Assembly (NCBI GenBank): GCA_011170375.1
Contig: DUEV01000004.1
Location: forward strand, 62,001-126,000
DNA length: 64,000 nucleotides
DNA from: Dehalococcoidia bacterium
Lineage (GTDB): Bacteria > Chloroflexota > Dehalococcoidia > Dehalococcoidales > Fen-1064
Direction: 5' to 3'
Below are positions 34,876 to 37,826 of the stretch, piece after piece. The position numbers and the translations under genes are program-made. Below the pieces are notes generated by a model, which searched no databases, was not told where the DNA came from, and saw only the letters and a list, made by a program, of their open reading frames with translations. Within the stretch, counting starts at the first letter, position 1. Each line of letters opens with the position of its first letter.

Positions 34876-35052
34876 ATGGTAACCTGGAGACTGAAGGACT
34901 GCCCCCGCTGTGGGGGAGACACATACATAGATAAAGACTTAGACGGGTGGTACCAGCAATGCCTCCTGTGTGCTTACAGGCTTGAGCTGAAGGAGCTAAA
35001 TTGCCGTAAGAAGCCGCTGGCGGTGACCATTTCGGACGAAGACGAGGACTAG
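34876..35052 (+). CDS. small zinc-ribbon protein, 58 residues
   Basis: ATG 34876 is preceded by GGTGAGG. The product has CPRCGGD and CLLC pairs that form a zinc ribbon (residues about 9-32), then the basic ELNCRKKPLA and an acidic tail SDEDED. It resembles small stand-alone zinc-ribbon proteins; the role is unknown. Confidence 0.6.
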   Translation: MVTWRLKDCPRCGGDTYIDKDLDGWYQQCLLCAYRLELKELNCRKKPLAVTISDEDED

Positions 35053-35108: not shown

Positions 35109-35139
35109 TTGACAAAACCCTAGGGTTTTTAGGTATAAT
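35109..35139 (+). promoter_or_regulatory. promoter with palindromic operator of the XRE-ImmA pair
   Basis: TTGACA 35109-35114 and TATAAT 35134-35139 with a 19-base spacer. The spacer is almost filled by the perfect 16-base palindrome AAAACCCTAGGGTTTT (35114-35129). The predicted transcript start coincides with ATG 35146, so the message would be leaderless. Confidence 0.7.
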
Positions 35140-35145
35140 ACTTTT

Positions 35146-35523
35146 ATGAACAATAAAAAAGAACCCAAGATTGTGCCATTCCTGAAAGACTTGATGAGGC
35201 GCCGACGACGTCTGCCCAGTCAGCTAGCTAACGACGTTGGCGTCAGCCATCCCACGGTTGGCCGATGGCTGACCGGTGAGGACGCTCCCAGTACAACCTC
35301 CTGCCGCAAGCTGGCGGCCTACAGTGGCGTATCCGTGGAAGAGGTTCTAGCCATGGCTGGTCACCTGCCAGAGATCAAACCTGTGCCAGCCGCAGAATGG
35401 CCAGAATTCAGAGAGTACGCTAACACCAAGTACCCCGATTTGCTTGATGAAGACGTCATCATCATGATTGAAGACCTCATTGAGCGCCGGCGGGAGAAAA
35501 GGCTTGGCAAGAAAACTCCCTAA
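35146..35523 (+). CDS. XRE-family HTH regulator
   Basis: 125 residues. The helix-turn-helix lies at about 15-60 (RRRRLPSQLANDVGVSHPTVGRWLTGEDAPSTTS). The acidic C-terminal half (YPDLLDEDVIIMIEDLIERRREK) could mediate pairing. No ribosome site precedes the ATG, in keeping with a leaderless transcript. It overlaps the ImmA-like gene downstream. In such pairs the metallopeptidase inactivates or modifies the XRE repressor; the palindrome in its promoter is the likely operator. Confidence 0.85.
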   Translation: MNNKKEPKIVPFLKDLMRRRRRLPSQLANDVGVSHPTVGRWLTGEDAPSTTSCRKLAAYSGVSVEEVLAMAGHLPEIKPVPAAEWPEFREYANTKYPDLLDEDVIIMIEDLIERRREKRLGKKTP

Positions 35524-36190
35524 ATGGGAGGTTCAGCTCTGGTCTTACCTTACCATCGGTAATGGCATGCACTGCCCCCTACTTAACTGCTGCACCAGTA
35601 TGTTAAGAAGAGAGTGTTGTGCCGATACCAACCGTGAGAAGCTTAGCCTTCTGATTGCCAGCGACGGCCGGTTTGACCCCGATAACTTCGACCGGGGAAG
35701 GCCCTGCGGCGAGGGGGTAATGCCGTACGTCGAGAAGCTGGCAGAACAGCAACTCAGACGTGGTAAGGTAACAAGCATACCAGTGCCCACTGAACTTGTT
35801 CAACTGGTTGATGAAGGGCATCCTATCGAAGTGTGCCCACTCGACCTCAGGGCTTACTGCGCTGCAACCTGGCGTCTCCAGGACTGCTGGGTAATACAGG
35901 TACCCGATACAGCCTCCCCATCCCACACTCGATTTGCTTTATTCCACGAGGCCTTCCACATTATTGCCCACAACCGTTGTCAGTCCCCCGTCTTCAGTAA
36001 AAGGGGGACAAATCAAGGCGCCTTCAATGAGCTGCTGGCAGATTACTTCGCTATCTGTGTCCTGATGCCCAGAGAACATTTGAGAGAGAAGTGGGTGGAG
36101 ATTCAAGACGTACAGAAGATGGCGGATACCTTTGAAGTCCCTAAGTCAACCATGTGGCTCAGACTCAGGGAAATGGACCTGGTAGACTGA
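35504..36190 (+). CDS. ImmA/IrrE family metallo-endopeptidase
   Basis: About 228 residues from TTG 35504, chosen by GGGAG 7 bases upstream; TTG 35468 is an alternative. The zinc motif is RFALFHEAFHIIAHN (HExxH), with a downstream Glu in FNELLADYFAICVLMP, as in peptidase M78. Members cleave a partner repressor under stress or DNA damage. It overlaps the end of the XRE gene by 20 bases, so expression is coupled. Whether it belongs to a mobile element relic or a host stress switch cannot be told. Confidence 0.85.
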   Translation: MARKLPKWEVQLWSYLTIGNGMHCPLLNCCTSMLRRECCADTNREKLSLLIASDGRFDPDNFDRGRPCGEGVMPYVEKLAEQQLRRGKVTSIPVPTELVQLVDEGHPIEVCPLDLRAYCAATWRLQDCWVIQVPDTASPSHTRFALFHEAFHIIAHNRCQSPVFSKRGTNQGAFNELLADYFAICVLMPREHLREKWVEIQDVQKMADTFEVPKSTMWLRLREMDLVD

Positions 36191-36404: not shown

Positions 36405-37826
36405 ATGCAAAATACCAGAAGCTCTTACAAATGGCTGGCACTACTGACCGTATCTATTGGTACCTTCATGGCCACCCTGGATGCCAGCATTGTTAACATC
36501 TCCCTGCCGAGACTGAGCGTTGTCTTCGATACAGAGCCATCGGTCGTGCTCTGGGTAACGGTTGCCTATCTCCTGGTAAGCGTCGGCTTGATGCTTGCAC
36601 TGGGTAAGATTGGTGACCTGTTCGGCAGGAAACGAGTCTATATCATCGGCCTGACAGTTTTTACCGTAGGGCTTGTCCTCTGCTGGATTTCGCAGAGCGT
36701 TGTCCAGCTTATCCTCGCCCGAATCGTACAGGCAGTAGGGGCCGCCATGACCGCTGCTCTGAGCAATGCCATCGTTACTGATGTCTTCCCTGACCAGGAG
36801 CGAGGCAAAGCATTGGGTATCCTGGGAGCATTGGTTTCCGCCGGTTTACTGAGTGGCCCTGTTCTGGGCGGTTTCCTGCTTGATGCACTCGACTGGCCTT
36901 CAATCTTCTATGTCCGCGTGCCTGTTGGTGTTATTGGCGTGATTATGGCCCTGGTATTACTTAAAGAACAAAAGGTAGTCAGTGCCGAGATGAGGTTCGA
37001 TTGGGCCGGTGCCGGCATTCTATTCGGTGGTCTTGCCTGCCTGCTGCTCTTTTTCAATCTTGGAGGTAAGCAAGGTTTCACCGATATCCCGGTCCTCGCC
37101 CTGTGCGCTGGCGCGGTGGTGCTACTTGGCTTCTTTATAGTAATCGAAAAAAGAGTCTCACATCCAATCCTCGACTTAAGTCTCTTCCGCAGTCGCATCT
37201 TTGCCAGTGGCATCGTTAGTATGGGCATCATGTTCCTCGGCATATCCGCCAACACCTTCCTCACACCTTTTTACCTCATTCATGGACTCGGCCGTTCCGC
37301 CGCACAGGCCGGATTACTACTCGCGGTCATCTCCTCTACTACCATTTTCGTAGGACCAGTCAGCGGCTGGCTCTCAGATAAGATAGGCTCGAGGATATTG
37401 TGTACCATTGGCATGACCTTTGTCACTCTTGCTCTCTTTCTACTCAGCAGACTGGTTACCGAATCATCCACACCGGAGATAATACTACGTTTCGTACTCC
37501 TCGGCTTCGGACTGGGCATGTTCTCATCGCCGAATAACAGCTCAATCATGGGCTCAGTACCCAGGCAGAGTCTCAGCACAGGGTCGGCCATGATTGCCAT
37601 GATACGACAGGTGGGGATGTCAAGTGGTATGGCCATTGCCGGGGCAATCTTCGCCTGGCTTACCGGGGATATTCCCATTAATACACTCGATGCCCCCTCC
37701 CTCGTCAACGCCTTTCAGAACAGCCTTCTGATTGCTGCCATCATTTGCAGTATTTCTATCATCACCTCCTGGGTTCGCGGTAGAAGCACGCCCGAAGCTT
37801 CGGAGACAACTCCACCCATCGGTTGA
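36405..37826 (+). CDS. MFS drug transporter, DHA2 (EmrB/QacA) type
   Basis: 473 residues with 14 predicted membrane segments, the DHA2 layout. Visible motifs are TFMATLDASIVNISLPRLS (helix 1, motif D), GKIGDLFGRKRVYIIGL (motif A) and the motif C segment GLLSGPVLGGFLLD. It probably extrudes lipophilic compounds by proton antiport. It is a single gene followed by an intrinsic terminator. Confidence 0.88.
   Translation: MQNTRSSYKWLALLTVSIGTFMATLDASIVNISLPRLSVVFDTEPSVVLWVTVAYLLVSVGLMLALGKIGDLFGRKRVYIIGLTVFTVGLVLCWISQSVVQLILARIVQAVGAAMTAALSNAIVTDVFPDQERGKALGILGALVSAGLLSGPVLGGFLLDALDWPSIFYVRVPVGVIGVIMALVLLKEQKVVSAEMRFDWAGAGILFGGLACLLLFFNLGGKQGFTDIPVLALCAGAVVLLGFFIVIEKRVSHPILDLSLFRSRIFASGIVSMGIMFLGISANTFLTPFYLIHGLGRSAAQAGLLLAVISSTTIFVGPVSGWLSDKIGSRILCTIGMTFVTLALFLLSRLVTESSTPEIILRFVLLGFGLGMFSSPNNSSIMGSVPRQSLSTGSAMIAMIRQVGMSSGMAIAGAIFAWLTGDIPINTLDAPSLVNAFQNSLLIAAIICSISIITSWVRGRSTPEASETTPPIG

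Follow-up and report, generated by a model that had tools for sequence, protein, structure and literature searches.

A putative autorepressed XRE repressor/M78 peptidase operon with a predicted leaderless start in a Dehalococcoidia genome

The genome of an uncultured, anaerobic Dehalococcoidia bacterium carries a gene pair in which an XRE-family repressor gene is followed by a gene for an M78 (ImmA/IrrE-type) metallopeptidase. The promoter layout, which is conserved among relatives, strongly suggests that the repressor mRNA is leaderless, and a perfect palindrome is located within the promoter. We consider it probable (roughly 0.6) that the pair is a compact autorepressed repressor/anti-repressor operon resembling ImmR/ImmA, DdrO/IrrE or CapH/CapP. 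The peptidase also carries an N-terminal cysteine motif, C-x5-C-x8-C, which was not mentioned in the earlier note on this DNA. The pair was studied in a stretch of 64,000 nucleotides (hereafter the window) from a source genome of 2.28 Mb in 17 contigs, which is about 95 percent complete. The features are listed in Table 1.

Table 1. Features of the repressor/peptidase locus (positions in the window; peptidase residues numbered from 35468)
Feature	Positions	Strand	Evidence
-35 hexamer TTGACA	35109..35114	+	6/6 consensus; exact TTGACA in 14/28 hand-set promoters, window counted
Perfect 16-bp palindrome AAAACCCTAGGGTTTT, proposed auto-operator	35114..35129	+	16/16 symmetric; 14/16 in sister L074, which keeps ACCCTAGGGT
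-10 hexamer TATAAT	35134..35139	+	6/6 consensus; ends 6 nt from ATG
Predicted transcription start, A of ATG (leaderless)	35146..35146	+	inferred from -10 position; layout conserved among relatives
XRE-family repressor, 125 aa, HTH_3 / HTH_31 and two-helix C-terminal tail	35146..35523	+	Pfam; AlphaFold2 model, mean pLDDT 85.6
Conserved C-terminal tail, residues 85-119 (helices 88-95 and 102-119)	35398..35502	+	conservation; model
Candidate cleavage region: loop joining the two C-terminal helices, residues 96-101	35431..35448	+	model; analogy with ImmR F95-M96 (PMC8960796)
GGGAG, Shine-Dalgarno-like, 7 nt before TTG 35504	35492..35496	+	sequence
M78 (ImmA/IrrE-type) peptidase	35504..36190	+	PF06114, E 1.3e-10; 20-nt overlap with the XRE gene, given the chosen start TTG 35504; longest ORF from 35468
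Cys-rich N-terminal region: Cys 36, 42, 51, further Cys 80	35573..35707	+	alignment of 23
HEAFH zinc-binding motif, residues 160-164	35945..35959	+	H160, E161, H164 invariant in 23/23
E188 codon	36029..36031	+	invariant in 23/23

The XRE promoter consists of two perfect hexamers separated by a 19-nt spacer. The earlier note had placed a palindrome between -35 and -10, and this was borne out: the palindrome takes up most of the spacer and shares one base with the -35 hexamer, the first A of AAAACCCTAGGGTTTT being the last base of TTGACA. The promoter scanner used on the window accepts only spacers of 16-18 nt and therefore omits this promoter. The predicted +1, 7 nt past the -10 hexamer, coincides with the A of the XRE ATG. 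This ATG is the earliest in-frame start codon, an in-frame GTG at codon 10 being a possible second start, and no Shine-Dalgarno-like site is present upstream of it. The first T of TATAAT lies at -12, which agrees with a published criterion for leaderless genes, a -10 hexamer some 12 nt ahead of the start codon (PMC3160421).

Among 156 genomes of the order, 20 carry a relative of the XRE gene (E up to 1e-20), as do 11 of 393 genomes sampled from the class (E up to 1e-15), the source genome being counted in both. Relatives were also found at 35 loci in named Dehalococcoid or Chloroflexi MAGs, some of which have two. By a mechanical rule (T-A---T with at least four of six matches, mechanically chosen starts), 19 of 32 relatives have a -10 hexamer whose end lies 5-7 nt upstream of the start codon, compared with a mean of 1.63 and a maximum of 7 in 1000 in the shuffle control. 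The 32 relatives are not all independent of one another (for example L082/L084, L076/L077 and L091/L095). This count omits L085 and L089, which have no start codon by the rule, and the distant L107 and L108. The layout is missing in the remaining 13 by the same rule; among the exceptions, L104 and L105 look leadered and L090 has no -10 hexamer in place. When the starts were set by hand, the gap between -10 and start was 6 nt in 18 of 28 loci and 7 nt in four, and none of the 28 starts was preceded by a Shine-Dalgarno-like site. These starts, covering 28 of the 36 loci (L085, L089, L094, L098, L104, L105, L107 and L108 are omitted), were chosen after the sequences had been seen, and the mechanical count is the more trustworthy. 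They include an ATT start (L091), the start of a broken upstream copy (L100) and an interrupted XRE frame (L106). In L100, the intact XRE gene is directly preceded by a broken duplicate of its 5' end.

Leaderless genes do not appear to be a habit of the whole genome. In 464 kb of the source genome, at most 8 of 295 long ORFs have a -10 hexamer at that place, without a peak, although taking the first ATG as the start blurs any peak in this control; 118 of the 295 have a Shine-Dalgarno-like site. An XRE paralogue in the same genome (L031) has GGGGGAG before its ATG. The claim of the earlier note that the transcript starts at the ATG is thus supported by the conserved -10 position, by the hand-set starts and by the lack of a peak among the long ORFs. 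Of 12 Chloroflexi genomes, 4 have been predicted to contain leaderless genes, on average 4.7 percent (PMC3160421), and a leaderless gene in this phylum is therefore uncommon but not new.

The palindrome itself is less readily interpreted. Perfect 16-bp palindromes occur seven times in 464 kb of the source genome (about one per 66 kb) and once in the window. Since one per 64-kb window is the chance rate, only its position is notable: as the strongest inverted repeat among the 50 nt upstream of the XRE start, the palindrome has a z of 3.88 (p 0.01, 200 shuffles). The nearest named relative found, a Dehalococcoidales MAG (L074) whose XRE protein is 90 percent identical, shares this promoter, in which the palindrome has shrunk to ACCCTAGGGT. 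Identity between the two is 40/45 bases upstream of the ATG and 40/53 at fourfold sites in the gene, a modest excess. In more distant relatives the spacer sequence differs, and the family as a whole shows hardly any excess of inverted repeats (combined z of 1.64 for 32 loci, about 1.0 without the window). An operator conserved across the family was therefore rejected, as the palindrome is not kept and the inverted-repeat signal is weak. It is conceivable, though rather unlikely, that the palindrome arose by chance in a single lineage and that the leaderless operon is controlled by XRE binding elsewhere or by another factor. The chance-level frequency and the poor conservation would agree with this, whereas the position of the palindrome and the core kept within a nearly identical upstream block in the sister genome argue against it. 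The earlier proposal of a repressor site is plausible: its core is retained in the sister and is unrecognisable elsewhere, and we read the palindrome as a putative lineage-specific auto-operator of XRE.

A spacer of 19 nt with a central dyad is the layout of promoters activated by MerR-family proteins. The present promoter shares it, with both hexamers perfect and spaced wider than usual, and the dyad might be untwisted by such an activator rather than bound by XRE. However, no MerR protein was recognised among the ORFs of the window (six examined by Pfam, the rest by eye), and a 19-nt spacer is present in only 4 of 28 relatives, so that we regard this explanation as highly improbable. The 19-nt spacer was also rejected as a family trait, as 23 of the 28 relatives have 17-18 nt by a scoring that favoured these lengths, and the suggestion that it signals special activation or DNA bending is not supported.

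The earlier note had also suggested that further copies of the palindrome would reveal a regulon, and the genome did not bear this out. The scan of the whole genome returned one exact copy, one place with two mismatches and six with three, and a control pattern read backward returned one match. About six palindrome-like places were expected genome-wide (window shuffle mean of 0.16, scaled), and the eight found are therefore no clear excess over chance. The sequence CCCTAGGG occurs twice in 464 kb of the source genome. The palindrome has no second exact copy, and stop-to-stop frames of 110 aa or more overlap five of the seven near matches; degenerate sites may exist. Further targets, if any, are not marked by exact palindrome copies. 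The two near matches outside long open frames, at 1501-1516 of L004 and 1501-1516 of L007 in the source genome, each have three mismatches and are possible degenerate operators; TATAAT directly precedes the one in L004. An MFS transporter gene lies downstream of the pair on the same strand (36405-37826), as it does in L074 and L075, and is a possible target gene.

The first ORF was assigned to the XRE (Cro/C1) family by an HTH_3-type domain (30.4 bits against a cut-off of 23). Its C-terminal tail is more conserved (0.80-0.85) than the HTH region (mean 0.73), which fits a cleavage or dimer interface. The tail is retained, wholly or partly, in XRE loci without a following peptidase, which argues against a role solely as peptidase substrate. 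In a fold search with the XRE model, the best row had an E of 4.9e-4, and DdrO (6jq1) had an E of 0.18. Elsewhere in the source genome (L109, C1:524-619), the same tail is present on a 105-aa ORF in which no HTH was recognised, near an ORF that resembles, by eye, a 4Fe-4S oxidoreductase subunit.

The second ORF matched PF06114 with 41.5 bits against a cut-off of 22, and all 23 aligned peptidase members matched this family. The HExxH motif and the downstream glutamate are intact, and E188 is presumably the third zinc ligand by homology with the M78 family. The peptidase model (mean pLDDT 81.4) aligned best with CapP in VIA-align (Z 13.5 over 147 residues, rmsd 3.3), followed by PprI and IrrE (Z 10.8-11.6; best PprI 11.6, best IrrE 11.4). 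Entries titled 'Mycobacterium tuberculosis transcriptional regulator', which we take to be MtPrpR, gave Z 10.2-10.9, and the next unrelated row had a Z of 4.0. Foldseek alone gave TM-scores below 0.5. The PADLOC profile of capP matched residues 88-236 of the peptidase with an E of 9.8e-14. The XRE gene comes first and the adjacent M78 gene second, as in the ImmR/ImmA type, and the repressor with an overlapping metallopeptidase described earlier was thus confirmed, with its catalytic residues intact.

An ORF for an HExxH peptidase lies downstream of XRE in 23 of 36 loci, and an ORF of the same similarity cluster in 29, remnants and contig-cut ones included. Nine of the 36 loci have no intact or contig-cut peptidase, and two more have a decayed peptidase only. 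In L076 and L077, the peptidase is decayed and the XRE gene is intact. In three genomes (L091, L095 and L060), an XRE paralogue that lacks an intact peptidase partner precedes a gene that is hisH-like by eye. Two overlapping genes with the peptidase second also resemble a type II toxin-antitoxin pair, in which XRE would be the antitoxin and the peptidase the toxin, and such a role has been proposed for a ZnMP/HTH-Xre pair of Brucella (PMC10538038). This role is very improbable here, as XRE genes exist without a peptidase or beside a decayed one, and the fold and profile matches are to peptidases that cleave repressors.

It is also possible that the pair is the retained remnant of a switch from a mobile element or prophage. 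ImmR/ImmA is carried by such an element (PMC8960796), and PHROGs matched both proteins (phrog_3949, E 5.4e-8; phrog_87, E 1.4e-11). However, the scanned neighbours are Crp-like, ferredoxin-like, HSP20 and MFS proteins, and inspection by eye of the neighbour clusters listed revealed no integrase or phage gene. A phage origin was also set aside: the peptidase alignment, run once against viral contigs by a pattern-based method, returned no relative. We consider this origin improbable and retain the reading of an autorepressed operon.

The N-terminal region of the peptidase distinguishes the family. C36 and C42 are each conserved in 22 of 23 members and C51 in all 23, while the column of C80 holds a cysteine in five. 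At least one extra cysteine follows C51 in the N-terminal region of 21 of the 23 without a fixed column (best 12/23). A survey of 61 related genomes for M78 peptidases gave 33 matches; 30 loci were fetched and 28 examined, L133 and L149 having given no ORF. The motif is present in seven of the 28, all seven being members of the present family; L148 shows no XRE gene in its locus. In six of the seven, the cysteines lie at -124, -118 and -109 from HExxH, and in L154 they are shifted by 4. The 21 loci without the motif include L142, a fragment of a family member. As the family query contained the cysteines, the motif can be taken to mark the family but not to have arisen for it. In a search of the phylum, the full-length members with the motif, L160 and L161, appear to be the same proteins as the already aligned L094 and L102 and added nothing independent; the motif is absent from the shorter readable matches.

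Searches with the cysteine region itself returned little. Pfam, up to an E of 5, gave nothing for eight of nine segments and one weak zinc-ribbon row (E 0.07) for the ninth. In a PDB sequence search, a designed helical bundle matched positions 42-87, past the three cysteines, with an E of 5e-4, and all other matches had an E of at least 0.13. Model confidence is low in this region (pLDDT 60-76). Some structural alignments start at model residues 81-86 and others at 30-49; the fold of the region is therefore barely probed, and no new fold is claimed. A small zinc-ribbon-like ORF (CPRCGG..CLLC) lies just upstream of the promoter (34876-35052) and clusters, among the 36 loci, with L074 and L075 only.

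From these features, we infer how the operon might work. RNA polymerase would start at the A of the XRE start codon and produce a leaderless repressor mRNA. An XRE dimer bound to the spacer palindrome would then shut off its own operon. Autoregulation by dimers bound to palindromes is common among XRE regulators (PMC12565409). Once activated, the M78 peptidase would cut XRE and lift the repression, a step suggested by the behaviour of ImmR/ImmA, DdrO/IrrE and CapH/CapP. The cut would most likely fall in the loop between the two C-terminal helices, since ImmA is reported to cut ImmR in the linker between helices (PMC8960796). Activation might be sensed by the family-specific cysteines through a bound metal, either zinc or an Fe-S cluster, and the region may thus serve as the sensor of a stress that triggers destruction of the repressor.

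The activation of M78 peptidases is incompletely understood; the published signals include zinc release (PMC7907104) and single-stranded DNA (PMC10904395). Very tentatively, an M78 peptidase with its own N-terminal metal or Fe-S site might serve anaerobic Chloroflexota as a switch that responds directly to oxygen, redox state or metal. The protease would be turned on once the metal is lost, and the leaderless message would restore repression even if normal translation initiation were impaired. Because the conserved cysteines are on the peptidase itself, direct sensing by the protease is testable with two purified proteins. The locus is also an example of a -10 hexamer that holds its place at the start codon in relatives throughout a class, with spacers that differ in sequence.

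No published report of this Chloroflexota pair was recognised among the matches listed for leaderless Chloroflexi genes, ImmA/XRE and IrrE, the last being unspecific terms, and one may still be in print. Several described systems share parts of the arrangement. The regulator genes lambda cI, PaaR2, C.PvuII and C.Csp231I are likewise transcribed from the start codon or a position adjacent to it (PMC8630535, PMC2997769, PMC4824078), but they have a phage, toxin-antitoxin or restriction-modification setting, and the consulted portions of these reports mention no coupled peptidase. MtPrpR of Mycobacterium tuberculosis combines an IrrE-like fold with a cysteine-bound [4Fe4S] cluster (PMC6765138). 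Its cluster motif, however, is C-terminal (C-x2-C-x4-C plus one Cys) and its peptidase residues are reported as unconserved (PMC6765138), whereas the motif here is N-terminal and the residues are intact.

The CapH/CapP system of CBASS likewise consists of an HTH repressor and an M78 peptidase, with CapP-type activation by ssDNA (PMC10904395), and CapP is the best match of the peptidase both in structural alignment and among PADLOC profiles. The extra N-terminal cysteine region sets the present peptidase apart. No CBASS genes were recognised beside the pair (six ORFs by Pfam, the rest by eye), and PADLOC gave no capH row for XRE, although its library may hold no capH model. In the DdrO/IrrE (PprI) system of Deinococcus, an M78 peptidase also cleaves the repressor, and a palindromic motif and leaderless expression also occur, pprI having a -10 motif at its start codon (PMC12340547). 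However, the repressor gene ddrO has a classical promoter and RBS (PMC12340547), and in D. radiodurans some 20 genes are preceded by the RDRM (PMC5552922), whereas the palindrome here has no second exact copy. IrrE/PprI also has a C-terminal part without a counterpart here, as the alignments end at chain residues 169-179, which correspond to the last residue of the peptidase.

ImmR/ImmA of ICEBs1 in Bacillus subtilis resembles the present pair: its XRE repressor has 127 aa (125 aa here) with two helices predicted in the C-terminal part, and its anti-repressor is a metallopeptidase (PMC8960796). On its conjugative element, ImmR is reported to bind two promoters at six sites in all (PMC8960796), in contrast to the one spacer palindrome here; compared with that system, the leaderless start and the Cys-rich N-terminal region are found only here, where no element genes were recognised. 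An XRE repressor with an M78 peptidase is thus a known kind of pair, and the combination described here is a variant of ImmR/ImmA, DdrO/IrrE and CapH/CapP.
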